Of a stretch of 64,000 nt of DNA, positions 17,257 through 34,035 are shown one piece after another. Both the position numbers and the translations under genes were made by a program. Origin of the DNA: a bacterium (lineage in GTDB: Bacteria; Bdellovibrionota; Bacteriovoracia; Bacteriovoracales; Bacteriovoracaceae); assembly GCA_030425045.1 (NCBI GenBank), contig JAUHVL010000001.1, positions 62,001-126,000 on the forward strand, read 5' to 3'. Each line of letters starts with the position of its first letter. Position 1 is the stretch's first letter. Below the pieces are notes generated by a model, which had not been told where the DNA came from, searched no databases, and saw only the letters and a program-made list of their open reading frames with translations.

Positions 17257-17389
17257 AAGTTATTCTCCATGATCATTTTGAAATTGATGCCATTTTTTTG
17301 GCTAGCGCATTACATAAAACAAAATGTTTCCAACATATTAACAATGGTGTAAATTTTTGTAAGCTATTATTTGAAATGGAGCATTGAAC

Positions 17390-17833
17390 ATGTCGTCAAC
17401 GAATTTAGACGTTTTCATGCCTGTTATTATCCTGATTGCTCTTGCTATCATAATGTTTGTAGGCGCAATCGGTGTAGTGGGCAAACTTTTAAGACCCCAT
17501 AAACCTACTCCCTTGAAAGAAACACCCTATGAGTGTGGTGAGGCGCCAGTTGGTTCTGCTTGGTCAAACTTTAACGTTAGGTTTTATGTTGTTTCATTAA
17601 TCTTCATCATCTTTGATGTTGAAGGTGCATTGATGTTTCCAGTTGCAGCTGTATTTAAAGACTTTGTTGCAATTGGTGCTGGTGGAGTTGTTCTAGGCTC
17701 TCTACTTCTTTTTATTTTAATTCTAGCCTCGGGTTTAGTTTACTGTTGGAAAAAAGGCGATCTTGATTGGGTTAAAAGTTTTCAACTGTCTGAAGATCAG
17801 TTGAAAAAATTAAATGAAGTTGAGGCACGCTAA
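17390..17833 (+). CDS. nuoA: NADH-quinone oxidoreductase subunit A
   Basis: Membrane subunit of complex I at the junction with the quinone site. ATG 17390 is chosen because GGAG lies eight bases upstream; the protein is 147 residues. Three membrane helices surround the conserved loop YECGEAPVGSAWSNFNVRFY, which contains the cysteine that reports active/deactive states in other organisms, and FDVEGALMFP in helix two. In this genome nuoA is followed directly by nuoH, with B, C, D, E, F, G and I absent from the window. The stop overlaps the nuoH start (TAATG). Confidence 0.96.
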   Translation: MSSTNLDVFMPVIILIALAIIMFVGAIGVVGKLLRPHKPTPLKETPYECGEAPVGSAWSNFNVRFYVVSLIFIIFDVEGALMFPVAAVFKDFVAIGAGGVVLGSLLLFILILASGLVYCWKKGDLDWVKSFQLSEDQLKKLNEVEAR

Positions 17834-19029
17834 TGAATAATACTATTGTTTCGTATTTGTCACAGTTTGAAGGTCATCAAAAATTTCTAGCTGTCGCAAG
17901 TGAATTTTTAGGTTTTGATGTAACAGCACTTGTTGGTTTTGTTATATTTTTTACAGCATGTTTTATTTTGGTAAACGTTGCTGCCGCTATCGGTGGACTT
18001 GGTACTTATGCTGAAAGAAAGATCTCTGCAGATATTCAAATGAGACAAGGTCCCAATAGAGTAGGACCCTATGGGCTTCTTCAGTTTCTTGCTGATGGCG
18101 TGAAAATGATTCTAAAAGAAGACGTTGTACCAGCACAGGCTGATAAGTTTCTTTTTAATATAGCTCCTCTGCTCGCCTTGAGCGGTGTCTTTGCAACTTT
18201 AGCAGTTCTTCCTTTATCTAGTGGTTTTATTTTAACTGATCTTAACATTGGAATTTTTTATCTCTTAGGCGTTGGCTCAGTTGTTGGTGTTGCTATTTTC
18301 GTAGGTGGTTACGCTTCAAACTCAAAGTGGAGTTTGTTGGGTGGTATGAGAGGTGCTTCACAGATTATAAGTTATGAAGTGCCGGTTACCATGTCGATTA
18401 TTTCGATTGTTTTATTAAGTGGCGGAATGTCGCTTGTTACTGTGACTGAGTCTCAAGGTGGTCTACCTCATCAGTGGTTCATTCTACATAATCCATTTAC
18501 CTTTATCGGATTTTTTGTAATGTTCATTGGAACTCTTGCTGAAGCAAACAGAGCACCTTTTGATTTACCTGAAGCTGAATCTGAGCTTGTTTCTGGTTAT
18601 CACACTGAATATACAGGTATGAAGTTTGCTTTCTTTGCGCTTGCTGAATACGCTGAGGTTTTTGTTCTTTGTGGAATTGTTTCGGCTCTTTATTTAGGTG
18701 GATATAAAGTACCGATGGATTTAGGTAACGGTGTTTTCTTTGTTGAAAATCTTGGCTTACCTGCAGTAATTGGAAAAAATATAGGACAGTTATTACAACT
18801 TGGTGCATTTTTTACCAAAACATTCCTCCTTTACTATGTTGTTATCTGGATTAGATGGACACTTCCTAGGATGAGAGTTGATGACCTGATGACTCTTTGT
18901 TGGAAATATCTAACACCTATTTCTTTATTTAATTTAATTGGTTGTGCTATATGGGTTTATTTCTTTGAGAATCAATCTATGTGGTCAGTAATCTTTAAGG
19001 CTGGTGCCGCTGGTGCAGGACACCACTAA
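17833..19029 (+). CDS. nuoH: NADH-quinone oxidoreductase subunit H
   Basis: Complex I membrane subunit that forms much of the quinone channel and the first proton path. The 398-residue protein has about eight helices with family landmarks: TYAERKISADIQMRQGPNRV, the acidic quinone-site loop starting at residue 236 (AEANRAPFDLPEAESELVSG), YLGGY at 287-291, and the C-terminal LLYYVVIWIRWTLPRMRVDD. It starts in the nuoA stop codon. The gene is complete and intact and serves as the reference for the divergent copy at 25374. Confidence 0.97.
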   Translation: MNNTIVSYLSQFEGHQKFLAVASEFLGFDVTALVGFVIFFTACFILVNVAAAIGGLGTYAERKISADIQMRQGPNRVGPYGLLQFLADGVKMILKEDVVPAQADKFLFNIAPLLALSGVFATLAVLPLSSGFILTDLNIGIFYLLGVGSVVGVAIFVGGYASNSKWSLLGGMRGASQIISYEVPVTMSIISIVLLSGGMSLVTVTESQGGLPHQWFILHNPFTFIGFFVMFIGTLAEANRAPFDLPEAESELVSGYHTEYTGMKFAFFALAEYAEVFVLCGIVSALYLGGYKVPMDLGNGVFFVENLGLPAVIGKNIGQLLQLGAFFTKTFLLYYVVIWIRWTLPRMRVDDLMTLCWKYLTPISLFNLIGCAIWVYFFENQSMWSVIFKAGAAGAGHH

Positions 19030-19042
19030 AAAGGATTAAAAA

Positions 19043-19570
19043 GTGTTTGAGAATATTCTATTTTTTATTTCTTCGTTTTTAGTTTTAGGAGGAGCAACAA
19101 TGGTAGTTCTTTCTAAAAACTTAATGCATGCATGTATTTTTCTTCTTTTTACTCTATTCGGTGTAGCCGGACTTTATTTAACCTTAGGTGCCGACTTTCT
19201 TGCTGCTGCTCAATTGGTTGTCTATGCAGGTGGTGTGGTCATCCTTATGCTGTTTGGAATTATGCTAACTGGTGGTACGGAAAATAAAGAAAATAGATTT
19301 GGAATAGAGAAAATACCTGGAATGGGTAGTGTAAAAACATATATTGTTGCTGGTGTATCAATTCTCTTTATCGCAACTGTTGTTTTGAAAATTATTGCAA
19401 ACTACATGAGACATTATCAGCAAACTGACTTACCAGAGTATATGACAACTGTAGAAAGAATCGGTCATTCACTACTGACTGATCACATACTGGCTTTTGA
19501 AATTTCTTCAATCCTATTATTAGGAGCATTGATTGGTGCTGCTATGATAGCTAGGCCAAGAAAGAGCTAG
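19043..19570 (+). CDS. nuoJ: NADH-quinone oxidoreductase subunit J
   Basis: Membrane subunit of complex I linking NuoH to the antiporter-like subunits. The GTG start follows AAGGAT; the protein is 175 residues with five predicted helices. Helix three has the flexible glycine patch LVVYAGGVVILMLFGIML, typical of NuoJ, whose pi-bulge changes during turnover in well-studied complexes. Gaps of 13 and 8 bases to its neighbours place it within one nuo operon. Confidence 0.95.
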   Translation: MFENILFFISSFLVLGGATMVVLSKNLMHACIFLLFTLFGVAGLYLTLGADFLAAAQLVVYAGGVVILMLFGIMLTGGTENKENRFGIEKIPGMGSVKTYIVAGVSILFIATVVLKIIANYMRHYQQTDLPEYMTTVERIGHSLLTDHILAFEISSILLLGALIGAAMIARPRKS

Positions 19571-19578
19571 GAGTAAAG

Positions 19579-19884
19579 ATGGTTACATTGGGTTCTTATT
19601 TATTTTTATCATTTGCACTTTTTGTTGCTGGTTTAGCGGTAATCATTGCAAGAAAAAATATTATCGCCATGCTTTTAGGTATTGAGCTAATGCTCAATGC
19701 TGCAGCTTTAAATTTTGTAGCTTATACAAGGTTTGTTAATAGTAATATTGACGGTCATATTATGGCCTTATTTATCATAGTAATTGCTGCGGCTGAAGCA
19801 GCTGTTGGTTTAGCTATTGTTATTAGATTTTTTCAATTGCGTGAGAGTATTCATATTGATGATGCCGCTCAATTACAAAATTAA
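19579..19884 (+). CDS. nuoK: NADH-quinone oxidoreductase subunit K
   Basis: Small MrpC-like complex I subunit of 101 residues with three helices. Both membrane glutamates required for proton transfer are present: E36 in LLGIELMLNAAALNF and E73 in IAAAEAAVGLAIVI. Spacing of eight bases from nuoJ and about twenty to nuoL keeps it in the operon. It is the reference for the copy at 26726, where neither glutamate is seen. Confidence 0.96.
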   Translation: MVTLGSYLFLSFALFVAGLAVIIARKNIIAMLLGIELMLNAAALNFVAYTRFVNSNIDGHIMALFIIVIAAAEAAVGLAIVIRFFQLRESIHIDDAAQLQN

Positions 19885-19904
19885 TACTTAGTTAGGAAAA
19901 AAAT

Positions 19905-22082
19905 ATGGATTATACAATTTCTAGTATTGCACCAATCGTTCTACTTCCTTTCTTTGCCTTTGCAATTAATGCTTTTATTGTAAAGAGATTCACAAAGTTA
20001 GCTGTGTTTATTAGTTGTGCTGCGATTCTTGGTTCTTTTGGATTTGCTTACAATATCTTCTGCGATTTTATGACCGTATATTCAGCGGACTATCATATTC
20101 ACAAAACATTTAATTGGTTCAACTTAAGCCATGGAAACTTAAACTTTAAAGTCGATATGGGTATCTATATCGATAATATGTCAGCTGTGATGTTACTTAT
20201 GGTGACTGGTGCTGCTTCTCTTATTCATATTTTTTCAACTTATTATATGAAAGAGGACGTTAGATACGGTCGTTTTTTCGTTTATCTATCTTTATTTACC
20301 TCGGCAATGCTGGGCCTTGTTCTTTCTGATAACTTACTTTCTGTATTTATTTTTTGGGAACTTATGGGCTTTTGCTCTTATTCTCTTATTGGTTTTTACT
20401 ATGAAAAAGAAGGTGCCGGTAATGCTTCTATAAAAGCATTTATGACAACAAGAGTTGGGGATGTCTTTTTCTTATTTGGTATTCTCGCAATTTGGTCGAT
20501 TGTAGGAAATGTCACCTTTGTAGATATCTATAAAACAATTGCTGCTGGCGGATTTGATGGTGCAATGGCTCTTGGAATTCCTCTCGCTACAGTTGCAGCC
20601 TTTTCTATTTTTATGGGTACTGTTGGTAAGTCCGCTCAGGTTCCATTACAAGTTTGGTTACCAGATGCCATGTGGGGTCCAACACCATGTTCTGCATTAA
20701 TTCACGCTGCAACAATGGTTGCCGCCGGAGTTTACTTGTCTCTAAGATGTTACCCTCTTATGGAAGTTGGTAACTTAACAACTGCTATAGCTTATATTGG
20801 TGGAATAACTGCTTTTGGTGCAGCAACAATTGCTCTTGTTCAGACTGATATCAAAGCGGTGCTTGCTTATTCTACCATTTCACAATTGGGTTATATGGTT
20901 TTAGGTGTAGGTGTTGGATCGTATAACGCTGCTTTTATGCACTTAATTACTCACGCTGTTTTTAAAGCATGTTTATTCCTTTCTGCAGGCTCTGTTATTC
21001 ACTCATTGCATGATCACCATACCCACGGTCACGTTCAAGAAATGCCACGTATGGGTGGATTGAGAAAGAAAATGCCATATACCTTTATAGCAATGCTTTT
21101 ATGTACGTTTGCTATTGCAGGTGTCCCACTATTTTCAGGCTTTGTATCTAAAGACAGAATTCTAGGAGATGCACTTCTTGCAGCTGGGTACAGTAAATCA
21201 TTTATAATCCCTGCAGCTCTTGGATTTGGTGGAGCTCTATTAACAGCTTTTTATATGTTTAGAATGATGTTTTTAACTTTCTTTGGAGAACCAAGAGATA
21301 AAGAGCTTTATGATCATACCAAAGAAGAGAAAATTTCTTGGAATAGAAACGTACCTCTTTTAATTTTAGCAGTTTTTACTCTCGGTGTTTTCTATTCAGG
21401 ATCTTTAACGGGTCAAAAAATAGTTAAAGTTTTTCCAAAAGATAGCATTGAGTGGTTTAAAACTCTTATTGTTGAACCCAAAGTGGAAAAATTTCAGAAC
21501 TACCAAAGTGAGCCATTTGCTTGGACTGATACTAGAAATAAAACACGATTTGAAAGAACAAAATATGATCCAACTTATGGACTTCCACAAGAAGAGTATG
21601 ACCACGTTCATCACGTGCATTTAATTGGCGCAGGTATGTCTGTTTTGATTGTGATCCTTGGAGTCGGTATGGCTGCTATGATGTACCTACTTAGACTCTG
21701 GAATCCAGGCTGGTGGGTTAATACTTTTGCTAGATTTTATAGAGCACTTCAAAATAAATACTACTTTGATGATATGTATGTAAAAGGCCTTATTAAAAAG
21801 GGTCTTCTGCCTTTAAACAATCTACTTGCAGCTATAGATATGGGTATTTATGACAGATATGCTATTGATGGCTGGCAATATGTAGTTAGAAAGATTTATT
21901 TAGTATCAAAGTGGTTTGATAACATTATGGTTGATACTGTTGCCGTTGACGGAACTGGAGCAAGTGTAAGACTGATGAACATAGTCTTAAGAACGCTACA
22001 GTCTGGTAGAGTGCAGTTTTATTTTATTATTATTATATTTTTACTAACATTTTCGAGTTATATATTTAATCAAAACTTTTAG
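19905..22082 (+). CDS. nuoL: NADH-quinone oxidoreductase subunit L
   Basis: Distal antiporter-like proton pump of complex I, 725 residues, longer than E. coli NuoL (about 613). Channel residues are present: E152 in FWELMGFCSYSLIGF, lysine in GTVGKSAQVPLQVWLPDA, the HLITHAVFKACLFL helix, and K416 in PLFSGFVSKDRIL. The extra length lies in a hydrophilic insert after about residue 500 (tyrosine- and acid-rich, including KYDPTYGLPQEEYDHVHHVH), followed by the long lateral helix and the last membrane helix. It lies in the operon between nuoK and nuoM. Confidence 0.96.
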   Translation: MDYTISSIAPIVLLPFFAFAINAFIVKRFTKLAVFISCAAILGSFGFAYNIFCDFMTVYSADYHIHKTFNWFNLSHGNLNFKVDMGIYIDNMSAVMLLMVTGAASLIHIFSTYYMKEDVRYGRFFVYLSLFTSAMLGLVLSDNLLSVFIFWELMGFCSYSLIGFYYEKEGAGNASIKAFMTTRVGDVFFLFGILAIWSIVGNVTFVDIYKTIAAGGFDGAMALGIPLATVAAFSIFMGTVGKSAQVPLQVWLPDAMWGPTPCSALIHAATMVAAGVYLSLRCYPLMEVGNLTTAIAYIGGITAFGAATIALVQTDIKAVLAYSTISQLGYMVLGVGVGSYNAAFMHLITHAVFKACLFLSAGSVIHSLHDHHTHGHVQEMPRMGGLRKKMPYTFIAMLLCTFAIAGVPLFSGFVSKDRILGDALLAAGYSKSFIIPAALGFGGALLTAFYMFRMMFLTFFGEPRDKELYDHTKEEKISWNRNVPLLILAVFTLGVFYSGSLTGQKIVKVFPKDSIEWFKTLIVEPKVEKFQNYQSEPFAWTDTRNKTRFERTKYDPTYGLPQEEYDHVHHVHLIGAGMSVLIVILGVGMAAMMYLLRLWNPGWWVNTFARFYRALQNKYYFDDMYVKGLIKKGLLPLNNLLAAIDMGIYDRYAIDGWQYVVRKIYLVSKWFDNIMVDTVAVDGTGASVRLMNIVLRTLQSGRVQFYFIIIIFLLTFSSYIFNQNF

Positions 22083-22099
22083 TTAAAAAGGAGCGCCAA

Positions 22100-23632
22100 G
22101 TGCAGGCCCATTCAAACTTATTAAACTGGATTTTATGGATGCCCATGATTGGAGCAATCGTAACACTTTTAATTCCTTCAAAAATGGAAAAAGGTATTCG
22201 TTGGTGGAGTTTAGTTAATACTTTAACAACGTTCATCTTAACATTAGTGTTGTATAGCAAATTTGATACTACTGTTCCGGGAATGCAAGAAGCTTTTAAT
22301 GTTAAGATTCCTTGGATTGCTCAGTTTCATATTAATTATTCACTAGGGATTGACGGTATATCATTACCAATGATCTTGCTCACGGGCTTACTTTTCTTCC
22401 TTTGTATTATGAGTTCTTGGACTATTACAAAACAAATTAAAGCCTACTTTTCATTATTTTTATTTCTTCAATGTTCAGTATTTGGAGTTTTCTTAGCGTT
22501 AGACTTCTTTTTATTCTACGTCTTTTGGGAAGTAATGCTTATTCCGATGTTTTTCCTAATCGGAATATGGGGTGGAGAAAATAAAGAATATGCCGCAGTA
22601 AAATTTTTCCTCTACACATTCTTTGGATCAATTTTAATGTTAATTGGTATGGTTGCTCTTTACTATGCTTCAGGCCAGGGAGCAGATTCATTTGATATCT
22701 TAGCTCTATCTGGGGGACACTTTAGAAATCTAAATCTAGAGCTCTTTGGAACAAACTTTGCGTTTAACAAATTATTATTTATTTTCTTATTCATTGGTTT
22801 TGCGATTAAAGTACCCGTGTTTCCTTTTCATACTTGGTTACCACACGCACACGTTCAGGCACCTACAGCAATTTCGGTAATTCTTGCAGGTGTTTTATTA
22901 AAAATGGGTACATATGGATTTTTGAGAATCGCTTATCCAATTTTTCCAGAAGCCTCTAAGTACTTCTCTTACTCTATAGCAGTCTTAGGTATTATCAACG
23001 TTATCTACGGTGCTTTCTGTGCAATGGCTCAAAACGACGTTAAAAAGCTTGTTGCATATTCTTCTGTATCACACATGGGCTTTGTCATGCTTGGCTTAGC
23101 GGCGATGACAGTTCAGGGTATGAATGGAGCTGTACTTCAGATGTTTAACCACGGAACTTCAACAGCTATGATGTTCCTACTTATAGGTATTCTTTACGAA
23201 AGATCTCACCACAGATGGATCGTTAAGCCAGATGGTACAAAAGGTTTTGGTGGTCTTTATACTCAATTACCAAAGTTTAGTATAATTTTCATTATAGCTA
23301 TGTTTGCTTCAATGGGCTTACCTGGTTTATCAGGCTTTATTTCAGAAGCATTAATTTTCCTAGGTATTTACGAAAGATTTACTTCAATCACAGCGCTAGG
23401 GTTAATTGGTCTTCTCATCGGTGCAGCTTATTTACTATGGATGTACAAAAGAATGTTTTTTGGTGATGTCATCGATGAATGTAAAACTTATACAGACGTA
23501 AATGCTAGAGAAATTGCTTATATGACTCCTCTTTGTATTGCCGTTATTGTTTTTGGTATTTATCCATCACCAATATTAAATATGATGAGAGCTTCAGTGG
23601 GTAAACTGGTTTCGTTACTTGCTACTTTTTAA
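22100..23632 (+). CDS. nuoM: NADH-quinone oxidoreductase subunit M
   Basis: Second antiporter-like proton pump, 510 residues, GTG start after AAGGAG. Key residues are visible: E144 in FYVFWEVMLIPMFF, lysine in FAIKVPVFPFHTWLPHAHVQAP, FNHGTSTAMMFL (the NuoM form of the central helix) and the glutamate in GLPGLSGFISEALIF. About 14 membrane helices are expected. It is intact and sits between nuoL and nuoN. Confidence 0.96.
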   Translation: MQAHSNLLNWILWMPMIGAIVTLLIPSKMEKGIRWWSLVNTLTTFILTLVLYSKFDTTVPGMQEAFNVKIPWIAQFHINYSLGIDGISLPMILLTGLLFFLCIMSSWTITKQIKAYFSLFLFLQCSVFGVFLALDFFLFYVFWEVMLIPMFFLIGIWGGENKEYAAVKFFLYTFFGSILMLIGMVALYYASGQGADSFDILALSGGHFRNLNLELFGTNFAFNKLLFIFLFIGFAIKVPVFPFHTWLPHAHVQAPTAISVILAGVLLKMGTYGFLRIAYPIFPEASKYFSYSIAVLGIINVIYGAFCAMAQNDVKKLVAYSSVSHMGFVMLGLAAMTVQGMNGAVLQMFNHGTSTAMMFLLIGILYERSHHRWIVKPDGTKGFGGLYTQLPKFSIIFIIAMFASMGLPGLSGFISEALIFLGIYERFTSITALGLIGLLIGAAYLLWMYKRMFFGDVIDECKTYTDVNAREIAYMTPLCIAVIVFGIYPSPILNMMRASVGKLVSLLATF

Positions 23633-23644
23633 CAAGGTTTGATT

Positions 23645-25123
23645 ATGCCTTTTAATTATTTAGAGAATCTTACACACTATATTCCCGAGTTGATCATTTG
23701 CTTTACAATGATCGCATGTATTTTATTTGAATCAGCATACGAAAAGAATGATTCTGATAGAGGGATACTTTATTTAATAGCAATATTAGGACTTGGGTCT
23801 GCTGGAGTTTTTGCATATCAAAAAATATTTGCAGAAAATACTTTCATTTTAGGAAGTGCACTTGCTATAGACTCATTTTCATCTACAGCAAAAGTATTAA
23901 TGATAATTGGTACTATCGGTGCTCTCTACTTAAGTAAAATCTCAAAAGATATTTATCAAGATTTAAAAGGTGAATTTGTTATCATGTCTACGGGGGTTCT
24001 CGTTGGAGGATGTCTTCTGGCCTCTGCTAATAATATGCTTATCCTTTATATAGGAATTGAAACACTTTCGATTCTTTCTTACGTCATGGCATCATTTAAA
24101 AAGACTGACGATAGATCTAGTGAAGCAGGATTGAAGTATGTTTTATATGGTGGAGTCTCGGCAGCGGTTATGCTTTTTGGAATGAGTCACATTTATGGTG
24201 TATTAGGAACAATAAACTTTCAAGAAATGGCTACTGCCCTTTCTGGTATCGCTCAATCTTATCCAAATAATCAACTAACTATTTTAATTCCATCTTTTAT
24301 TTTATTTATTGCTGGTATTGGGTACAAAATTTCAAGTGTACCTTTTCATATGTGGACTCCCGATGTGTATGAAGGCTCACCAATGCCTGTTACGACATTT
24401 TTTTCTATAGTTCCAAAAATTGCAGGAATTACAATCCTATTGAGAGTTTCTTCACTGTTCTTTTCTGAAAGTAACCTTCTCTCAGTTAGCTGGTTTGGAA
24501 TAATCAGTTCAATGTCTATTCTTACTATTACTGTTGGTAATATTGCTGCCATTGGCCAGCGATCAGTTAAAAGAATGTTAGCTTACTCCTCTATATCTCA
24601 TGCGGGAATGATGATGCTTGGTATAGTTGTTCTGAATACAGTTGGTATGAGATCAATCCTATTCTATGCTGTTACTTATATTTTTATGACTCTTGTTGCT
24701 TTCTACATTTTATCAATTGTAAATGATGAATACGATAATGATCACTTTGAAAGATTTTCAGGCTTAATTTACAAAAAACCACTGATGGCTATTTTGATGG
24801 CCGTAACAATGTTCTCACTTGCTGGAATTCCACCACTAAGCGGTTTTGTTGCAAAATTTCATATATTAAATGCTGTTGTTAAAGAAGGATACTATACCCT
24901 CGCTATTTTAGCAGGCTTGAACTCGGTGATATCTTTATACTACTATTTAAAAATTGTTAGATTAATGGTTTTTAAACCTTATGAAGGCTCTGAAAACTTA
25001 GTAGGCTTTGGTGTCTTAAATCAAACTATTGTAACAGTGCTGTTTATACCAATCGTTATGCTTGGTATTTTCTGGGCAGGGACAATGGCCAAACTAAATC
25101 TTGCAAATATTTTAATGAACTAA
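23645..25123 (+). CDS. nuoN: NADH-quinone oxidoreductase subunit N
   Basis: Third antiporter-like proton pump. I start it at ATG 23645 (AAGG seven bases upstream) rather than the TTG two codons earlier, giving 492 residues. Landmarks are YIGIETLSILSYVMASF (helix 5 glutamate), YKISSVPFHMWTPDVYEGSP, LAYSSISHAGMMMLG and K404 in LAGIPPLSGFVAKFHIL. It is the last normal gene of the membrane-arm set. Only 24 bases, containing AAGGAAAGGG, separate it from the first gene of the divergent second set, so both sets are probably on one transcript. Confidence 0.96.
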   Translation: MPFNYLENLTHYIPELIICFTMIACILFESAYEKNDSDRGILYLIAILGLGSAGVFAYQKIFAENTFILGSALAIDSFSSTAKVLMIIGTIGALYLSKISKDIYQDLKGEFVIMSTGVLVGGCLLASANNMLILYIGIETLSILSYVMASFKKTDDRSSEAGLKYVLYGGVSAAVMLFGMSHIYGVLGTINFQEMATALSGIAQSYPNNQLTILIPSFILFIAGIGYKISSVPFHMWTPDVYEGSPMPVTTFFSIVPKIAGITILLRVSSLFFSESNLLSVSWFGIISSMSILTITVGNIAAIGQRSVKRMLAYSSISHAGMMMLGIVVLNTVGMRSILFYAVTYIFMTLVAFYILSIVNDEYDNDHFERFSGLIYKKPLMAILMAVTMFSLAGIPPLSGFVAKFHILNAVVKEGYYTLAILAGLNSVISLYYYLKIVRLMVFKPYEGSENLVGFGVLNQTIVTVLFIPIVMLGIFWAGTMAKLNLANILMN

Positions 25124-25147: not shown

Positions 25148-25381
25148 ATGGAAAATCCCTCCTCTCAAAAAAATAATAAGAGTCAATTAACAATAAAGAA
25201 TACTTTATTGTTAATTAAGTTAGGTTCTATTTTTTTTATATCTTATATAATACTAATTACTATTGATGGTGAGAGAATATCTTTTAAACTGAGTGATATA
25301 TGGGCGCCAATTCTTCTGTATATAATTATGTTGTTTGCATGCATATACCAGTTAAGTAGAGAGTCTAATCATAATGGTTAA
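25148..25381 (+). CDS. Small membrane protein, putative divergent NuoA-like (A')
   Basis: A 77-residue protein with a strong ribosome site (AAGGAAAGGG). A polar N-terminus (residues 1-18) is followed by two membrane helices (about 20-38 and 47-66) and a charged tail. No specific motif is recognised. I suggest it matches the second and third helices of NuoA because it opens a seven-gene run in which every later gene can be matched in order to H, J, K, L, M and N, and because the layout helix-DGERISFKLSD-helix resembles the end of NuoA (FDVEGALMFP...). The NuoA loop ECGEAP is absent. It overlaps the next gene by eight bases. The weakest member of the set. Confidence 0.45.
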   Translation: MENPSSQKNNKSQLTIKNTLLLIKLGSIFFISYIILITIDGERISFKLSDIWAPILLYIIMLFACIYQLSRESNHNG

Positions 25382-26339
25382 TGAACTCTTTAAAGTCATT
25401 CTGCTATCATTTTTAACATTTGGTTTTGTGCTGTTTTTACCGGCAATAAACAAAATAGTTTACAGAAATCGTTATAGTAGAAATCTTAATTCAGATCAAA
25501 AATTTTACGGTAAAAATATTCTAAAAATAATTGCACTTTCTACTGTTCTTTCAGAAAAACGATTTGATGTAAAATTTATAATAACAACTATAATCTTAAT
25601 ACTAGGAATAGGTATATTTCCCTATACATCTGATATTTGGGTTGATGGAAGTTTTTATCGAACAAGTTTTTATTCAGTAAAATATGATTTTATATATATA
25701 ATTTGCCTAATTTTAACTGTTAATTTTATAGACTTATTTTCAGCTATAAATAGTGAAAATGTTAAATCTAGTGAAATAATAATTACTAAAACTTATTTTA
25801 GTATAATATTTATAATAAACTGCATTGCCCTGCTTCTTTTTTTTCGATCTACAGATCTAGTAAATATAATTCAAACTCAAGAGGGTGGAACGTCAGAGCT
25901 ACTTGGAAATTTGCCTTTTATAAAGAATCCATTATCTTTCATATCTCAATTTTTTTGCTTTTTGGTTTTTTTTAAGACTCAAAACCCAGAATTAGCTAAA
26001 AAAAGAAGACATGAAGATTCTAAATTAATTTTTATAGAAAACTTAAAAATGTTTTTTGTATCCTTGTTTTTAGTATACTTTTATTTAGGCGGTTACTCGA
26101 TTGTACTATTTCCTGAAAAAGTACTCGATAATGTACCAATTATTTATAATTTATTTCAACTAGTCTTTGTTTTCTTAAAATTGGCCATCATATTTATATT
26201 TATTAACTATTTTAAAGATAAGGTTTCCATTGGCTACTCTAAAAACTTTAGTAATTTTTTCTTTAAACTAATTTTTCTTATTTCATTAATGGGCCTAATG
26301 GTTGAAATATTAAGAGAGGCTTCATATGGAATTATTTAG
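25374..26339 (+). CDS. Divergent NuoH-like membrane protein (H')
   Basis: A 321-residue polytopic protein, about eight helices, shorter than NuoH (398). By-eye alignment to the NuoH encoded upstream is good in several places: NPLSFISQFFCFLVFF against NPFTFIGFFVMFIGTL, the identical YLGGY (residues 237-241), VFVFLKLAIIFIFINYF against the NuoH segment ending in the conserved IRWTLPR, and the N-terminal helix followed by a basic, asparagine-rich stretch. The acidic quinone-site loop of NuoH is replaced by a lysine/arginine-rich stretch (KTQNPELAKKRRHEDSK). I infer a NuoH homologue that has lost quinone chemistry. Coupled by overlaps on both sides (8 and 14 bases). Confidence 0.7.
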   Translation: MVNELFKVILLSFLTFGFVLFLPAINKIVYRNRYSRNLNSDQKFYGKNILKIIALSTVLSEKRFDVKFIITTIILILGIGIFPYTSDIWVDGSFYRTSFYSVKYDFIYIICLILTVNFIDLFSAINSENVKSSEIIITKTYFSIIFIINCIALLLFFRSTDLVNIIQTQEGGTSELLGNLPFIKNPLSFISQFFCFLVFFKTQNPELAKKRRHEDSKLIFIENLKMFFVSLFLVYFYLGGYSIVLFPEKVLDNVPIIYNLFQLVFVFLKLAIIFIFINYFKDKVSIGYSKNFSNFFFKLIFLISLMGLMVEILREASYGII

Positions 26340-26733
26340 TATTTTCATTATGAGTGTTGCATTAATAAGCAATATAACGTCACTTATATTTAAATCATAT
26401 ATTAAAATAATTCTTCCTTTATATGCTGTTTTGGTAGGAATTACTTTGTATACTCATAACGAATACTTATCTCTCTTATTTGTAGCTGTAGCTATACTTA
26501 TAAGCTTATTTATTCTTGCTAATTTTAAAAATAATGAAGAATTAATAATTAATTTTCGAAAAGTAATTATATTTTTAATGATATTTTGTTGTGTTTTTGT
26601 AGTTGTATATACATTTCATGATAAAGATTTGAAAAGCATATCTGCCACTATGGAAAATAAACATGATTATTTATTTTTGTTTTTACTAGTTGTTATTTCC
26701 CCTGTTCTAGAGATGGTTAGAAGGTATGATTGA
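26326..26733 (+). CDS. Divergent NuoJ-like membrane protein (J')
   Basis: A 135-residue protein with four to five helices. Residues 12-70 follow the NuoJ pattern: a helix, a short basic loop (KSYIK, where NuoJ has SKNLMHA), a helix ending VGITLYTHNEYLSLLFVA against AGLYLTLGADFLAAAQLV, then a third helix LFVAVAILISLFILANFKNN. The glycine pair of the NuoJ third helix (YAGGV) is absent. The C-terminal hydrophilic part is short. It overlaps the genes on both sides (14 and 8 bases). The call rests on topology, gene order and partial similarity. Confidence 0.58.
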   Translation: MELFSIFIMSVALISNITSLIFKSYIKIILPLYAVLVGITLYTHNEYLSLLFVAVAILISLFILANFKNNEELIINFRKVIIFLMIFCCVFVVVYTFHDKDLKSISATMENKHDYLFLFLLVVISPVLEMVRRYD

Positions 26734-26947
26734 AGTTATTTTAAAGACGTTTTTGATATCAATACCCTTGTACTTTTTTATAACAAGTAGGGGTAAAAAT
26801 GTTATCTCTTATTTTTTGCTTATACAGTCACTTTTTCTCATATGCTTTCTCGGAAGTGGGCAGCATCTGTCATCTCAGATGCTTATGAGTGCTATGTTTT
26901 TAATTATCTCCCCTCTTTTTCTTTTAAATAAAAGAGGCACTAGATGA
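26726..26947 (+). CDS. Divergent NuoK-like membrane protein (K')
   Basis: A 73-residue protein with three helices, the NuoK topology. RGKNVISYFLLIQSLFLICF aligns without gaps to RKNIIAMLLGIELMLNAAAL of NuoK, so the essential glutamate E36 corresponds to Q34. The third helix (MLMSAMFLIISPLFLL) has no acidic residue, so the second glutamate (E73) is lost as well. The C-terminus is trimmed to NKRGTR. Overlaps its neighbours by eight and four bases. Gene order and this gap-free match make the assignment fairly good despite the short length. Confidence 0.63.
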   Translation: MIEVILKTFLISIPLYFFITSRGKNVISYFLLIQSLFLICFLGSGQHLSSQMLMSAMFLIISPLFLLNKRGTR

Positions 26948-28356
26948 GTGTTGTGATAATTTTTTTGTATACATTATTTTTCTTTCTTTTTGAAAAAAGT
27001 GAAAAAATAAAGAGATCTATAACCTATGGATGTGCTTCAGCGCTGTTGGTTACTCTTTATCTTTTTTTGGTTAACGACTATGGCTTTTTTGTTAATTTAT
27101 TGAAGAATATAGACTTGAGTATAAGTGAGACCAGAGTTCTTATTTTTGGATTTATGGTAACTATATACTGCTTTTTTTCAGATCGATTATTGTCTTTTTT
27201 AGACATCTATAAAAAAGTTTTTATTGTAGTTATTTTTCTGGCGAGCTGTGTTGAAGGTTTAGGTAACATTTATTTGTTTTATCCTTGTTTGTTATACTTC
27301 TTAATAAATAAAAAAGTGTCTTTTAGTGTTTACCTGATCTCATTAGTTTCTTGGCTTACTTTTCTTGTAGTAAAAAATGAGTCTTTAGCAAATGTTATCT
27401 TTATTCTACAGGTTATAAGTTTTAATTACTTTTTTATGTTGTTGTATGAGAGTAAAAACTTCTTCGTTTTATCTTATCCTTCTTTGTTATTGCATTTTAA
27501 GTCTATAAATTTAGATGCTCATTATAGTTGGGGTTTGATTATACTAATATGCTCATTGTTGTTTTACTTTTGGTGTGTCAAATTTTTTGAAAATAAAAAG
27601 TCAAATTTAGTTATACTTCTAATACCACTCTTTGTTTATGTGGGAAGTCAGTTTTGGTCAGCCCAGAATCAGATAGAATCAATTATGTTATTTTTATACT
27701 TACTTTGCTCGCTTTTGAAAGTTTTAGAAAATAAAGAGAAGAAGCACGCGATGTACTTTGGTGTGCCCTTTTTATTACTTTATTTGTTTCTCCCCTTCTC
27801 CCCCTTGTTTAAGTTTGGAAGTGCTTTTAATGAGATGGGGTTATCTTTTATTTTTTATCTAATATTAATAATGGTGAATTTTGTGATTGGATCATTAAGT
27901 GTTAAATATATTAAAACTCTAATTCTTGATAAGAAAAAAATCTATTTGAGTATAAAAAATAAATATGGAGTTAGGCTTACTGCTTTATTTATTATTGGCA
28001 TCATGTGTACATTATATTTGAAAGACTATGATAGTGGGTCAATAGTATTAAGAGAAAATGAGCCAGTCGTTTATATTTTAGCAATAATGAGTCTTGCTCT
28101 GGGTATTATGTTTAAGTATATCGCAGATGATTCAAATACTATTAAAGACATTTTTGGAAGAATGTATTATAAAGCAAAGAGCTCTTTCTCGTTTAGTTTT
28201 AATAAGAAAATACCTATGTTTCGCTTTGGTGACGGAATAAATCTGAATGAAATATCATATTTATTTAAGAATCACTCAATTCAACATCGCCTGGAGTTGA
28301 TTATAGTTTACATGTTTATAGTCTTGGTAATTGTATATTTGATGGTTTTTAAATGA
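26944..28356 (+). CDS. Divergent NuoL-like membrane protein (L')
   Basis: A 470-residue polytopic protein against 725 for NuoL. Matching landmarks by eye: NVIFILQVISF near residue 150 against SVFIFWELMGF, placing Q156 where NuoL has E152; SPLFKFGSAFNEMG against VPLFSGFVSKDRIL, placing F295 where NuoL has K416; and a C-terminal amphipathic stretch plus last helix (QHRLELIIVYMFIVL against GRVQFYFIIIIFLL). The region of the NuoL histidine/lysine helix (HAVFKACLFL) appears deleted. I infer an antiporter-fold protein unable to conduct protons by the usual path. It starts inside the K' stop codon (ATGA). Confidence 0.6.
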   Translation: MSVVIIFLYTLFFFLFEKSEKIKRSITYGCASALLVTLYLFLVNDYGFFVNLLKNIDLSISETRVLIFGFMVTIYCFFSDRLLSFLDIYKKVFIVVIFLASCVEGLGNIYLFYPCLLYFLINKKVSFSVYLISLVSWLTFLVVKNESLANVIFILQVISFNYFFMLLYESKNFFVLSYPSLLLHFKSINLDAHYSWGLIILICSLLFYFWCVKFFENKKSNLVILLIPLFVYVGSQFWSAQNQIESIMLFLYLLCSLLKVLENKEKKHAMYFGVPFLLLYLFLPFSPLFKFGSAFNEMGLSFIFYLILIMVNFVIGSLSVKYIKTLILDKKKIYLSIKNKYGVRLTALFIIGIMCTLYLKDYDSGSIVLRENEPVVYILAIMSLALGIMFKYIADDSNTIKDIFGRMYYKAKSSFSFSFNKKIPMFRFGDGINLNEISYLFKNHSIQHRLELIIVYMFIVLVIVYLMVFK

Positions 28357-29381
28357 TTGAATACTTGGCCTTTTTACCGATTGTTTTTATTATTTTATCT
28401 CTTCACATTAGAGGGCTTTTTGTTATCGGTAGTTCATTATTTATTATGATTCAAGCTTATTCATTATTTATATCAGGAGATATGAGTCAGTACTATTTAT
28501 ATAAAGAAGAAATACTAAACGTAGTAATAATTATTGCATTAAATATATTGGGTTTTATTAAAAAAAATAAGTTAGATAATCAGGTGCGCATTATAAGTGC
28601 GTTGGTGGTTTTGTTAACTATATCAAAAGGGATATTTACTGTAGTTTTTACGATAGAAATTTTTAGATTAATGACTAGGCCCAAGGTGTCAAATAGTGAA
28701 ACCGCAAAAGAATTAACTGCTTTCGCCGTTAGGTGCTTCTTTATATTCGTGTTGTTTTTAAATGTAAATATAGATTTGTTCCTGCATGAAAATCTAAGCT
28801 ATAGCGATTTACTTCTTACAGAAAACCTTGTCGCCTTGTCATTTATTTATTTAATTGAAAATATAATGAACTTTATAAAAAGCCTTAATGGTCACGATGA
28901 AACACTAAAAAAGGTAATTTTGTATATTGTTTTTCAAGTTTTAGTAATTAGCTATATGTCTTCTCTCGACACTCACTCTGAGCATTTATTAGCATATATT
29001 CAAGAATACATATTTGAACTATCTCTTTTTATCATATTAGCTTCATATTTATTTAGAAGAAGTCTTATTAATTACTCGCTACTCTATGTCGGTACGATCT
29101 TTACAAGTATTCACATTTTCCAAAACTCATTTTACTTTTTCTTTGTAGGCTTACCCGTTCTTATACTTATTTTAATTGAGCAATATAAAATTGAGATTGG
29201 TGAACGCTACATTAATTATGAGAAAGACTTATTGCCTTTTTCGTTTTCTTTCTTAGTATTTATTATTCCTTTTATTCTTGGTGGAGAATTTACAAGATCT
29301 ATTTGTGCAGTGACAATTTGTACTTTGCTCGTGCTAAATTTTACTAATAAATTCAAAAAAAGAAGTATGCTCCATGGTTGA
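28353..29381 (+). CDS. Divergent NuoM-like membrane protein (M')
   Basis: A 342-residue membrane protein against 510 for NuoM. Similarity is weak, but VVFTIEIFRLMTRP (E102) lines up with YVFWEVMLIPMFFL, where NuoM has E144, and LLPFSFSFLVFIIPFILGGEF (E312) resembles the NuoM run QLPKFSIIFIIAMF followed by LPGLSGFISEAL, where the second channel glutamate lies. The last one or two NuoM helices are missing. Position between L' and N' is the strongest argument. Overlaps both neighbours by four and eight bases. Could also be read as an unrelated membrane protein, hence moderate confidence. Confidence 0.5.
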   Translation: MIEYLAFLPIVFIILSLHIRGLFVIGSSLFIMIQAYSLFISGDMSQYYLYKEEILNVVIIIALNILGFIKKNKLDNQVRIISALVVLLTISKGIFTVVFTIEIFRLMTRPKVSNSETAKELTAFAVRCFFIFVLFLNVNIDLFLHENLSYSDLLLTENLVALSFIYLIENIMNFIKSLNGHDETLKKVILYIVFQVLVISYMSSLDTHSEHLLAYIQEYIFELSLFIILASYLFRRSLINYSLLYVGTIFTSIHIFQNSFYFFFVGLPVLILILIEQYKIEIGERYINYEKDLLPFSFSFLVFIIPFILGGEFTRSICAVTICTLLVLNFTNKFKKRSMLHG

Positions 29382-30546
29382 TATTATAAAACTACTTATT
29401 GTGCTTAATGTTGCATTTTTCATTTTAAGTATGTATTTTAACTTTAAGTCTATAAAAATAATATTCCCACTAGTACCTCTGAGTGTTCCTTTCTTTGAAT
29501 ATCTTTATACGGGGAATGTTAATATGGAGAATTTAATTCTCTACTTAATATATATTCTGATATGTGTAGTAAATTTTAGAGAAATATTAAGAAGCTCCAT
29601 TCGCTTAAACGATATAGTTATTTTAAACAATATTGTATTAGTCTATACATTGATAAAATTTAACAACGAAATATATTACAAAAATATCGCCTTATTCTCT
29701 ATTTTATTAATGACTCTATCTTTAATAAGAGGTGATAAAAGAAATGCATGGGCTATTTTGACCTTGCTTTTAATATTTGTATTATCTTTTTGGATACAGA
29801 CATTTGAATTTGTGGGAGAAAGTTCATACCTCTTTTACTATTTCTTACTTTTTATAAATATTTTCATTACGTTAATAATAATTCCAGAGTTTATTTTAGT
29901 CGAAGAACAAAAAAACAAGGGGAGCTTACTATTATTTGGGTATCTAATATTAATTCTATTAAACATAGAAGTCATTTTTCCAGTGGTAGAAAATTTACTA
30001 AGTAGATCAGCTTTTCAGGAAAATGTTGTGGGGAAAATTAAGTCTGTTTTATCAGTTGGGATTTCAGCCTTATGGCTATTCAAATATTTTCTGGAGAAGA
30101 AATTAGATAATAAATTATTTTGTGTATTTATTTCTCAATTGTCTCTCTGTTTTTATTTAGGTATACAAGATCAGTATAATAATTCTGTTTATATAAGTAA
30201 TTTATGCTTTTCTATAATTGTATTTTATATCTTAGTAAAAAAATCAATTACTGATAATAAAATCACAGACCCTTTCCTATTTACAATATCATTTGCTGGT
30301 CTTGTGGCATGTCCAATGAGCGCTACTTTTATATATAAATTAAAATATTTAAGCTATATGATCAATTTCTATGACTGGACATTTATCTTTGCATTTGTTG
30401 CAGTATCTATAGCATTATTTGGGACATCAACATACTTTATTACAGAGTTAAAAAAATCTTACGAAAATCGACGTTTAACTTTTAAAAATCAAGAATTGAC
30501 ATTATTTGCTATACTTATATTTTTACTGCCAGGATATATACTATAG
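29374..30546 (+). CDS. Divergent NuoN-like membrane protein (N')
   Basis: A 390-residue membrane protein against 492 for NuoN. Its C-terminal part matches NuoN well: DPFLFTISFAGLVACPMSA against KPLMAILMAVTMFSLAGIPP, then TFIYKLKYLSYM against GFVAKFHILNAV, with lysine K322 at the position of the channel lysine K404, and a final helix ending YFITELKKSY against YYYLKIVRLMVF. In the segment corresponding to the helix-5 glutamate of NuoN, no acidic residue is seen. It is followed after three bases by the GYF/TPR gene, so translation is closely linked. One of the better-supported members of the set. Confidence 0.66.
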   Translation: MVDIIKLLIVLNVAFFILSMYFNFKSIKIIFPLVPLSVPFFEYLYTGNVNMENLILYLIYILICVVNFREILRSSIRLNDIVILNNIVLVYTLIKFNNEIYYKNIALFSILLMTLSLIRGDKRNAWAILTLLLIFVLSFWIQTFEFVGESSYLFYYFLLFINIFITLIIIPEFILVEEQKNKGSLLLFGYLILILLNIEVIFPVVENLLSRSAFQENVVGKIKSVLSVGISALWLFKYFLEKKLDNKLFCVFISQLSLCFYLGIQDQYNNSVYISNLCFSIIVFYILVKKSITDNKITDPFLFTISFAGLVACPMSATFIYKLKYLSYMINFYDWTFIFAFVAVSIALFGTSTYFITELKKSYENRRLTFKNQELTLFAILIFLLPGYIL

Positions 30547-30549
30547 TAG

Positions 30550-33500
30550 ATGACATCTTATAGATTCAAACTTTTAGATGGCCGAACTATTGGGCCTTTC
30601 AAGATTGATGAAATCAATCAATTAATTAATGAAAATATCATTACCGGAAATGAATATGTTCAAGTGTTCCCTGGTGGGGAATGGATAGAGGTAGCAGAAA
30701 ATAAGGATATAAATAATCTCATTGTTGATTCTATCTTTGGTAATAAGAATAAAAATGATGAGACAATTACAAACATTGAAAATGACTTAGTTGAGTATCA
30801 AACAGCTATAAAATCTAAAAGTGACAAAGATCTTAAGCTTATCGTTGACGAAGAAATGGAGAAAAGTTTAGAAGCTGAAAGTGAGTCACAATATAGAGAG
30901 TTTAAGTTTTCTAAGAATGAAGATGTAGAGGTCGATTACGATGAATTAGAATCTGCATATCAAAAAAGTGAAGAAGAAAATAAAAAAGAAGAAGAGAGAA
31001 ATATTGATGCTACTCGAGTAGTAAAACTTAAAAACACACCTGCAATAGACAAAACTCGAGTAATAAATCCTGCGTCGATAAAAGATGACTTGTTTGATGA
31101 TGTTGAGGAGAAAAGTGAAGATCTTACAAGTTCTATTATCGAAGAGGAACCACCACCTCCGGTTGTTTCTTCAAGTGAAAAAACAGAGTTTCTTGAACTT
31201 GATGAGCTTAAAAAAGAATTAGGCAAAGAACTTCAAGAGGCAAAAGGCTATGAAGAAACAAAAATTTTTATTCCTGAAAAGAAAGAAGAGAAAACACTCG
31301 TAACAGAGACGAATCCCAAAAAGATCAAACCTGTTGTTGCTTTAGCTTTTATTGTTCTTCTCTATTTTTTAATTTTTGATGAAGAAGAAGTAGAAAAACA
31401 AAAAATATCAAAAGTACCCATTTCTAGTCCTGTAACAAAAGAAGTACCAAATCCAGGTTTGGCTCAAAAATTTTATACTGAAGGCGTTAAGCTTTATCGT
31501 TTAAATACATATCAATCTAAGGTTTTATCAGCGGAAAAGTTTAGACTCTCATTAGAAAATCAATTTAATGAAAATCCTTCACTTCCTTTTTTAATTAGAA
31601 CCTATGCAGAATTAATCGATAATGCTGTTAGTAGAAAAAAGGCAAATCTAGTAATTTATAGATTAATTAGAATTACCAGAGCGAAAGTACTTAAAGATGT
31701 TAACGTAGCTTATGGAACAGCTTTGTTTTATAGAAAATTGGGGAAGAATCAAGCTGCACTTAGAACGATAGAAAACTTTCTAAGGGTGGGAAAACCTAGT
31801 GTTGATTTGCTTTGTATATATGGAGAACTCTTGTTGGATCTTGGTGATTTTGTAAAAGCTAAGACTGTCCTAGATAACTTAATTAAGCTTAAAACAAAAC
31901 CGCCAAAAGCTTACCTCTTTTTAACTCGATACTATGTATATGACCAAAGACTAGAGTTAGCGAGAGATACCATTTTAGAGGGCGGAAAAAACTATCCAAG
32001 TAATAATAGTTTGATGATTAGTTTCGCTGAATTAGAACTAAAATTACAAAACTATAAATCTTTTGAAAAAATTCTTAGAACTTTGACGTTAACTCATTCT
32101 GGTGGTGAGCCAGTTGTGTATGCAAAGTATCTAGAGTTAATGGGAATCTTAAGCTCATTAAAGGGTGATAGTAAAAAAGCAGCAGTGTTTTTTAAATCCT
32201 CTTTAAGCGTTGTGAACTCACCTGCGCTAAGGTCTCGACTTGGAATGCTTGATGTCGAAGGTGATAAGCTTTCTCAGGCGTTAATACTTGAAAGTAAGGC
32301 TTTTAACTTTTTACAAATATCACGAAAGCATGTTGCAAAAAAAGAGTGGGAAGAGGCTTTTAAATTTGCGCTAGAAGCTGTTGACCTCAACCCAGGTTTT
32401 CTTCCAGTAGAACTCAATTTAGCTGATCTTCAAGTAAAGAGAGGCTATCTAGAAGCGGCTATTTTAAAACTAGAGTCGCTTAAAAAAGCTTATCCTAAAA
32501 GTAATCATGTCATTCATCGGCTCATTCGTGCTTACTTGGTTGCAAGAAAATTTGAAAAAGCAAAATATGAAATAAATTATATTTCGACATCAGATTTTAA
32601 AAAGGATGATGCTTATTTTAGTTTGCTTGGTTTTTATTACACAAAAATTGAAGGATATACACTAGCAATAAAGTTCTATAATAAATCAATAAGGATGAAC
32701 CCTTTAAATGATGATGTTTATTTTGAAATGGCTAAAATATTTATGAGCAGTCGTAAGTATAAAGAAGCAAAAAAAGCATTAACTGAAGCCATCTCTCTTG
32801 ATCCCAATAATCTAGATTATAGATCACTGCATAGTAAAATTTTGTTTGAGCTTGAAGGATCAGAAACAGCAGTTGGTTATCTTCAAGATTTAATTACTGA
32901 AAATAAAGATGACCCCTTGCTGTATGGAAATATTGCTATTTATTACTACAAAAGCGGCCAAGTAAAACAATTTGAGCATTATAAAGGATTGTTAGAAAAA
33001 TTACCTAAGAGGGACAGTAACTTCTTTAAATTTATGATTGAGTCTTCAGAGCTTGAGGGCAAAAACAAAAACGTTATCGATTTTTGTAAAGAGCTTTTAA
33101 AAATAAATCCTGGAGATATTGATACTAGAATGAAACTGGCAAATTTTTTAAGTTTAGAAGAAAGATATTTTGAAGCACTTGAGATTTATAATAGTATTTT
33201 AGAAAGAATGCCGGGTTATCCTTTAACGAATTATTACATTGGTAAAATTTACTTATTACAAAACAAAAATAAAGAGGCTTTAGAAGCTGGTAAGCTTGAA
33301 GTTAAGTCAAATCCTACTATCTATAATGGCCACTTTATTGTTGGAGAAGCCAATAGAAAACTAGAGGAATATTCTTTAGCTGTAAAAAACTTAGAAAAGG
33401 CAATTTCTCTGGCTCCAAGAAGCGTTGAGTCATTAATGTCCCTTGGTTGGATAAAGTTTCAGCAAAACTTTCTTGAGATTGCACGTGAGCTTTATATCAG

Positions 33501-33675
33501 GGCAAAGAATGTAGAGCCAAATAACCCTGATATAAGGCGTGAGCTTGGAAACGTATATGTAGGTATAGGTCAAAGTACTTTGGCTAAAGAAGAGTACGAA
33601 ATTTATTTAAAGTTAGCTCCTCAGGCTAAAGATAGAGCAAAAATTTCTAATAAAATTAAGAATTTGTCACGGTAG
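30550..33675 (+). CDS. GYF-domain, single-pass membrane TPR protein
   Basis: A 1041-residue protein. Residues 3-55 form a GYF_2-type domain (RFKLLDGRTIGPFKIDEINQ, GGEWIEV), a peptide-binding fold. Residues 60-255 are acidic and low-complexity, with four short threonine motifs (DATRVV at about 153, DKTRVI at 167, EKTEFL at 210, EETKIF at 235) resembling phospho-threonine docking sites. A membrane helix follows (about 260-275, VVALAFIVLLYFLIF), and from about 290 to the end there are more than a dozen TPR repeats, for example YTLAIKFYNKSIRMNPLNDD. With an N-in topology, the TPR array would be in the periplasm. Coupled to the divergent nuo-like set, so it is probably its assembly or binding partner (inference). 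Confidence 0.75.
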   Translation: MTSYRFKLLDGRTIGPFKIDEINQLINENIITGNEYVQVFPGGEWIEVAENKDINNLIVDSIFGNKNKNDETITNIENDLVEYQTAIKSKSDKDLKLIVDEEMEKSLEAESESQYREFKFSKNEDVEVDYDELESAYQKSEEENKKEEERNIDATRVVKLKNTPAIDKTRVINPASIKDDLFDDVEEKSEDLTSSIIEEEPPPPVVSSSEKTEFLELDELKKELGKELQEAKGYEETKIFIPEKKEEKTLVTETNPKKIKPVVALAFIVLLYFLIFDEEEVEKQKISKVPISSPVTKEVPNPGLAQKFYTEGVKLYRLNTYQSKVLSAEKFRLSLENQFNENPSLPFLIRTYAELIDNAVSRKKANLVIYRLIRITRAKVLKDVNVAYGTALFYRKLGKNQAALRTIENFLRVGKPSVDLLCIYGELLLDLGDFVKAKTVLDNLIKLKTKPPKAYLFLTRYYVYDQRLELARDTILEGGKNYPSNNSLMISFAELELKLQNYKSFEKILRTLTLTHSGGEPVVYAKYLELMGILSSLKGDSKKAAVFFKSSLSVVNSPALRSRLGMLDVEGDKLSQALILESKAFNFLQISRKHVAKKEWEEAFKFALEAVDLNPGFLPVELNLADLQVKRGYLEAAILKLESLKKAYPKSNHVIHRLIRAYLVARKFEKAKYEINYISTSDFKKDDAYFSLLGFYYTKIEGYTLAIKFYNKSIRMNPLNDDVYFEMAKIFMSSRKYKEAKKALTEAISLDPNNLDYRSLHSKILFELEGSETAVGYLQDLITENKDDPLLYGNIAIYYYKSGQVKQFEHYKGLLEKLPKRDSNFFKFMIESSELEGKNKNVIDFCKELLKINPGDIDTRMKLANFLSLEERYFEALEIYNSILERMPGYPLTNYYIGKIYLLQNKNKEALEAGKLEVKSNPTIYNGHFIVGEANRKLEEYSLAVKNLEKAISLAPRSVESLMSLGWIKFQQNFLEIARELYIRAKNVEPNNPDIRRELGNVYVGIGQSTLAKEEYEIYLKLAPQAKDRAKISNKIKNLSR

Positions 33676-33690
33676 ATCATAGACAAATCG

Positions 33691-33720
33691 TTGCCAATGA
33701 GAGTAAACATCATTTAATAT
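33691..33720 (+). promoter_or_regulatory. Probable promoter for the tRNA-Ser pair
   Basis: TTGCCA, an 18-base spacer and TAATAT (or TTAATA with 17 bases) end about ten bases before the first tRNA. The motif resembles a housekeeping sigma-70 promoter. No competing promoter-like pair is obvious in the 55 bases after the TPR gene. Confidence 0.5.
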
Positions 33721-33730
33721 CTAGTGCTAC

Positions 33731-33818
33731 GGAGGATTGGCTGAGTGGTCGAAAGCGGCGGTTTTGAAAACCGTTGACCTTCACGGGTCCGCAGGTTCAA
33801 ATCCTGTGTCCTCCGCCA
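33731..33818 (+). tRNA. tRNA-Ser (anticodon TGA)
   Basis: 88-nt serine tRNA. Acceptor arm GGAGGAT pairs with GTCCTCC; the anticodon loop TTTGAAA gives TGA; a long variable arm (GACCTTCACGGGTC) marks a class II tRNA; the T arm is GCAGGTTCAAATCCTGT; CCA is encoded at the 3' end. A second serine tRNA follows six bases later. Confidence 0.97.
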
Positions 33819-33824
33819 TCTTTT

Positions 33825-33916
33825 GGAGATGTGGCCGAGTGGTCGAAGGCAGCGCCTTGCTAAGGCGTCGTACCGTTTTGGCGGTACCGAGAGTTCGAAT
33901 CTCTCCATCTCCGCCA
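33825..33916 (+). tRNA. tRNA-Ser (anticodon GCT)
   Basis: 92-nt serine tRNA with encoded CCA. Acceptor GGAGATG pairs with CATCTCC; the anticodon loop TTGCTAA gives GCT; the long variable arm GTACCGTTTTGGCGGTAC is a near-perfect hairpin; the T arm is GAGAGTTCGAATCTCTC. Probably cotranscribed with the upstream tRNA-Ser. Confidence 0.97.
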
Positions 33917-34035
33917 TTTCAATAAAAAATAAATTAATCAATTATTAAATCTTGAAAAGCTTTTGAGTGTGGTCAATTTTGCCAACTATCTGAATAAGTA
34001 AAAATTAATAATAATTAAAGTAGATAGGAGTTACT

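Follow-up and report, generated by a model that had tools for sequence, protein, structure and literature searches.

The analysed window is a stretch of 64,000 nucleotides from a bacterium of the family Bacteriovoracaceae (GenBank assembly GCA_030425045.1, contig JAUHVL010000001.1, positions 62,001 to 126,000 of the forward strand). It carries an ordinary membrane arm of respiratory complex I, followed directly by a block of seven short membrane-protein genes, which we regard as the degenerate membrane arm of a second complex I and mark with a prime (nuoA'–nuoN'). A gene encoding a tetratricopeptide repeat (TPR) protein follows the block. The features of the locus are listed below with their lengths in amino acids (aa), their transmembrane segments (TM) and the basis of each assignment; g with a number denotes a genus of the family.

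17387–25123, plus strand: ordinary complex I membrane arm nuoA-H-J-K-L-M-N, termed type 2; from open reading frames (ORFs), with relatives in 100 family genomes
25148–25381, plus strand: nuoA', 77 aa, 2 predicted TM (canonical NuoA has about 119–149 aa and 3 TM); assigned by its position in the conserved order, as the window copy has no direct match by sequence
25374–26339, plus strand: nuoH', 321 aa, 7 predicted TM; assigned by iterative hidden Markov model (HMM), hhalign and alignment
26326–26733, plus strand: nuoJ', 135 aa, 4 TM; assigned by position, the g15 copy being NuoJ by Pfam
26726–26947, plus strand: nuoK', 73 aa, 3 TM; assigned by position, copies of intermediate genera matching NuoK (hhalign, 92.9%)
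26944–28356, plus strand: nuoL', 470 aa, up to 14 predicted TM; assigned by position, the g15 copy being NuoL by Pfam
28353–29381, plus strand: nuoM', 342 aa, 8 TM; assigned by position, the g15 copy being NuoM and copies of intermediate genera matching NuoM (79.7%)
29374–30546, plus strand: nuoN', 390 aa, 9 or more TM; assigned by position, alignment and predicted fold
30550–33675, plus strand: TPR-repeat protein with a weak N-terminal GYF_2-like domain, 1041 aa; TPR by Pfam, GYF_2 below cut-off

The first-pass annotation of this DNA had placed seven ORFs of 77, 321, 135, 73, 470, 342 and 390 aa in the block, and all of them were verified on the plus strand. Neighbouring ORFs from A' to N' overlap by 4 to 14 bases. 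The start of nuoA' lies 25 bases past the nuoN stop and is preceded by a good ribosome-binding sequence, AAGGAAAGGG, while the TPR gene begins 3 bases after nuoN'. The type 2 arm and the block probably form one transcription unit, and the TPR gene is part of the unit of the block. No Pfam or NCBIfam model matches any of the seven block proteins at cut-off, and PADLOC also gave no match.

A query with H' against 97 related genomes returned one distant relative only, and a scan of the genome contigs with H' gave no match, because this protein changes too fast. The flanking genes, nuoN and the TPR gene, were therefore used as anchors. The TPR gene is present in 114 of the 129 family genomes and nuoN in 100. 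Both are located on one contig and strand in 87 family genomes, the TPR gene being downstream in 87 of 87. The gap between them measures 4.9–8 kb in 50 of these genomes, 2.5–3 kb in two (g5) and less than 1 kb in 35, and in every long gap that was mapped the seven membrane genes follow one another as A, H, J, K, L, M, N. About 34 of the 48 family genera have the block or the greater part of it, a count that includes some blocks on contigs without nuoN, and it is usually found between nuoN and the TPR gene. The arrangement first noted in the window is therefore not a product of chance. Named relatives are Halobacteriovorax marinus, Halobacteriovoraceae, Bacteriovoracaceae and a metagenome-assembled genome of Bacteriovorax stolpii. 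In g26 (L057, L058) the block has no recognisable N' and is flanked by an unusual 480-aa membrane gene, a content unlike that of the other genera. A NuoH-like match in the family f2 (L103, L104) was set aside: it adjoins a 406-aa gene, and the rest of the block is missing.

The identity of the seven proteins becomes apparent from genus g15. The block of this genus has near-canonical sizes, and Pfam calls its products NuoA, H, J, K, L, M and N at E-values of 1e-26 to 1e-108 (NuoA 8e-29, NuoL 5e-79, NuoM 1.4e-72). In g15, g29 and g32 the block, where sequenced, is still an ordinary complex I with catalytic motifs, and a graded series in size and motifs connects g15 to the window copy. The H' protein and the g15 NuoH are joined by iterative HMM searches in both directions (E 8.8e-68), and NuoH of the reduced set matches that of the near-intact set in hhalign (97.7%, E 1.5e-12). 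The LGGY and NP segments (NPLSF against NPFTF), which the first-pass annotation had matched by eye, are retained in the alignment of H'. A by-eye match of K', a gap-free second helix, found no confirmation by sequence. The iterative HMMs for A', J', K', L', M' and N' stop short of the window sequences, and in the profile-profile comparison of the reduced set H' alone is clearly significant.

The fold of N' was modelled with AlphaFold (predicted local distance difference test score 64.7, predicted template modelling score (pTM) 0.56). When this model was compared with 350,542 chains in Foldseek, the best eight matches were all complex I antiporter subunits (best E 0.24). Structural matches reached a Z of up to 19.9, and the rows listed are antiporter-type subunits of complex I, NDH, MBS or Mrp. 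These matches and the alignment, in which N' retains the TM12-like segment SFAGLVACPMSATFIYK, support the C-terminal lysine segment proposed earlier for this protein. The model of L' was uninformative (pTM 0.31) and was not interpreted. Of the seven individual assignments made in the first-pass annotation, profile comparison upholds that of H' and structure prediction that of N'; the other subunits of the reduced set were not clearly significant by profile, and the model of L' added nothing. That the block is a much-altered membrane arm of a second complex I, arranged A-H-J-K-L-M-N, is borne out by the g15 orthologues, the gene order and the H' HMM, and it is close to certain that the seven genes descend from such an arm and constitute its decayed form.

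The block had been explained as a diverged tandem duplicate of the upstream nuoA–N arm, which would account for the identical gene order and the adjacency of the two arms. The NuoH and NuoL trees contradict this: near-intact copies of the block join another complex I of the phylum, apart from the upstream type, with a support of 1.000. The mean identity of the near-intact block to the other type and to the upstream type is 46 versus 36% for NuoH and 39 versus 33% for NuoL, and the g15 NuoH taken alone shares about 45–55% identity with the other type, which is common in the phylum, and about 40% with the upstream type. The block also has its own peripheral arm with a CD fusion elsewhere in the genome. 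An origin by tandem duplication is thus extremely improbable. In the NuoCD tree, many branches of which are long and weakly placed, the proteins of g15, g29, g32 and g21 that are linked to a lipoprotein gene (X, described below) are separated from the complex I of g25, g26 and g30. The latter is a third, intact complex I encoded in a single operon (L095, L096 and L097 for g30, g26 and g25), with a NuoCD fusion in g26 and g30.

Searches for NuoD in the genome of the window revealed two relatives, the ordinary one on contig C57 and, on contig C48, a NuoCD fusion of 540 aa with Pfam matches at E 1e-53 and 2e-22. The C48 cluster consists of the lipoprotein X (533 aa), NuoB', NuoCD' and NuoI', with overlapping frames and no NADH module. 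The reading as a membrane arm was therefore correct for the window and incomplete for the complex, as diverged NuoB', NuoCD' and NuoI' and a lipoprotein lie on another contig. In g15 and g32 the corresponding cluster reads X-B-CD-E-F-G-I, with all genes recognisable. The lipoprotein is found in the following stretch.

G000:C48:34155-38312 (L083:6156-10313): lipoprotein X, upstream of NuoB', family-specific and cysteine-rich

The lipoprotein X has a lipobox cysteine and eight more invariant cysteines, and matched no Pfam family and no solved structure significantly. It was found in 31 of 34 sampled family genomes, in one genome of a neighbouring family and in none of the other sampled families; a profile search detected it in 109 of the 129 family genomes. 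The relative in the neighbouring family f2 is located at G081:C72:1196-1855 (E 2e-16). The TPR protein has a GYF_2-like N-terminus (E 0.007, below cut-off), one hydrophobic segment near residues 267–283 and TPR repeats, and it consistently lies next to nuoN in family genomes, including those without the block (35 genomes, gap below 1 kb). The block and B'-CD'-I' are both absent from g7, g31 and the genome G018, and this joint loss supports the view that they belong to one complex. X persists alone in these same genomes. A membrane protein encoded after I' in g25, g5 and g19 was considered as a relocated subunit and rejected, since by eye it reads as a fatty acid desaturase.

The catalytic features of complex I are largely missing from the second complex. 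In the window genome the peripheral genes are not accompanied by NuoE, F or G. These three subunits are intact only in g15 and g32 (and in g29, seen on a partial contig). Degenerate versions occur in g6 and g28, where open-framed relatives of NuoF and NuoG without the FMN motif (L159, L160) adjoin degenerate NuoB and NuoCD; those of g28 are also devoid of the N3 cysteines. The histidine motif of the NuoD quinone site, HPxTHG, is replaced in the window NuoCD', which reads GPCSQNIKKPLQ at this position. Among the X-linked or block-linked CD proteins the motif is intact only in g15, g29 and g32; a match in g20 sits in a CD without X. Alignment and motif scan agree that the window H' has lost GPN in loop 1, the TM5 glutamate (SYE) and the acidic E-channel motif of loop 3. 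The antiporter glutamate and lysine motifs are present in g15 and g32, and the motif scan found none in the window L', M' and N', where single displaced residues in L' and M' may have escaped it because the alignment of these two proteins is unreliable. The TM12-type lysine of N' appears to be kept in the alignment. The peripheral arm of g16 is reduced to X and a 402-aa CD. Judged by sequence, only g15, g29 (partial contigs) and g32 are catalytically intact.

The iron–sulphur ligands are less uniformly affected. The window genome has all N2 and NuoI cysteines, and so do g3, g8, g9, g23, g39, g44 and g45; this is what would be expected of a complex that is still energy-converting, an 11-subunit-like form without NuoEFG, comparable to cyanobacterial NDH-1 or archaeal Fpo, that takes electrons from a soluble donor and moves ions through a slimmed membrane arm. 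Against this stand the missing quinone-site histidine, NuoH loops, TM5 glutamate and antiporter motifs, and the loss of N2 cysteines in at least eight genera (g34, g22, g19, g43, g25, g5, g28 and g35), most of which still carry the block. Furthermore, the identity of L' and M' falls to 20–50% between congeners. Continued energy conversion is unlikely in view of these losses.

Plain decay, in which selection on a redundant complex I is relaxed and every lineage is shedding the genes, would explain the stepwise loss of motifs and the shrinking lengths, and the block is wholly lost in g7, g31 and g33. In a simulation of neutral drift at 0.25–0.7 substitutions per site, H', L', M' and N' each acquired about 7–19 in-frame stops, yet the block frames are open in 54 loci. 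The intact frames, already taken in the first-pass annotation as an argument against simple decay, are therefore hard to reconcile with it. dN is below dS wherever both could be computed, with synonymous sites often saturated, and the C-terminal segments of CD' and the cysteines of X are conserved. Congeners within g15 share 72–93% identity in the block genes, mostly more than in the nuoN tail; within g44, g3, g34 and g24, nuoN is 76–86% identical between congeners and L', M' and N' only 20–60%, L' being among the fastest-changing block proteins. Retention of the block where the canonical complex I is gone, described next, also speaks against plain decay, which we consider improbable.

Genomes of g43, g10, g18, g37 and g23 (G042, G009, G017, G036 and G022; 95–99% complete) contain the block and no canonical NuoN, and the degenerate CD' is the one relative of NuoD that they have. 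In g43, g10 and g18 a NuoH search at 1e-15 was also negative. The operon-like cluster directly behind nuoN could point to a factor that assists or assembles the ordinary complex I of the shared operon. As genomes of at least five genera retain the block without canonical NuoN or ordinary NuoD, an accessory or assembly role for the ordinary complex I is very unlikely.

We propose, with a probability of about 0.6, that the second complex I is a multi-subunit pseudoenzyme kept for a non-respiratory task in the cell envelope, probably a structural one and otherwise one of positioning or regulation, and not for energy conversion. The parts needed for respiration are nearly all lost, yet the genes are intact across dozens of genera, as if an enzyme of respiration had been put to a different use. 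A complete and apparently catalytic form survives in a few sister genera, and the pseudoenzyme would be found in the window lineage and most others. The former NADH:quinone oxidoreductase would have kept its gene set and probably its assembly while losing its chemistry. H', A', J' and K' may still anchor CD', with B' and I' where present, at the cytoplasmic side, and L', M' and N', in which mainly hydrophobicity and bulk are conserved, may serve as a membrane platform. The TPR protein, with a cytoplasmic N-terminus, one TM and repeats that would be periplasmic according to its topology, and the lipoprotein X could tie the complex to the periplasm. Descent, gene order, the losses of motifs, the open frames and survival where a normal complex I is missing are seen in the data, whereas we infer the joint assembly of the primed proteins, how X and the TPR protein are placed across the membrane, and the task in the envelope. 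Some genomes that have no block still carry X and the TPR protein, so an X/TPR envelope system may be the older one, to which the remnant of complex I became attached. The chances are about even for the broader proposal that a whole respiratory complex was exapted family-wide into a non-redox envelope machine, with losses in genus-specific orders, and persists in lineages that gave up respiration through complex I.

Several observations weigh against the pseudoenzyme proposal or its parts. Some electron transfer is possible in the window genome because all its N2 and NuoI cysteines remain. No search recognised A', J', K', L' or M' of the window singly as a Nuo protein, and these five are assigned by position; the N' model may lean to the NuoN fold because its alignment held recognisable NuoN rows. 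Genera g25 and g47 keep B'-CD'-I' without the block at this locus, an exception for which we have no explanation, and g25, g7 and g31 have X and the TPR protein in the absence of the block. The parts are thus not an obligate set.

Complex I is the largest respiratory enzyme. The second complex shares with it (NDH-1, NuoA–N) the membrane-arm gene set and order and the homologues of NuoB, the NuoCD fusion and NuoI, which are intact at the locus in g15, g29 and g32. It differs in that the NADH module, quinone-site histidine, E-channel and antiporter motifs are missing, the N2 cluster is gone in several genera, most subunits are much shorter, and a TPR protein and a lipoprotein are linked to it. 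Cyanobacterial NDH-1 and archaeal Fpo likewise have no NADH module and keep B, CD and I. These enzymes are energy-converting and retain the quinone site, N2 and the pumping subunits, whereas in the block complex the quinone site, N2 and pumping features are lost or being lost. Mrp and non-redox relatives resemble the most degenerate lineages in having antiporter-type subunits without redox chemistry. Mrp has MrpA–G in another order, functional lysine and glutamate residues and no relatives of NuoB, CD or I; the block has the order A-H-J-K-L-M-N with NuoH' and a NuoCD' partner, which is not the MrpA–G set and order. A search of the open-access literature yielded no description of such a second, degenerate complex I, and we know of no complex I that is retained with its catalytic residues gone.

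A family with all stages from intact to gutted is a natural experiment on which subunits and residues are dispensable while the gene set stays, and the series also bears on what else a complex I may do. Annotation pipelines may wrongly score these genomes as complex I-positive. The carriers include predatory bacteria, so that a role in the envelope or the life cycle can be tested. Directly past the TPR gene of the window, short opposed ORFs at 33714–33941 resemble translated tRNA genes and probably represent a tRNA cluster.

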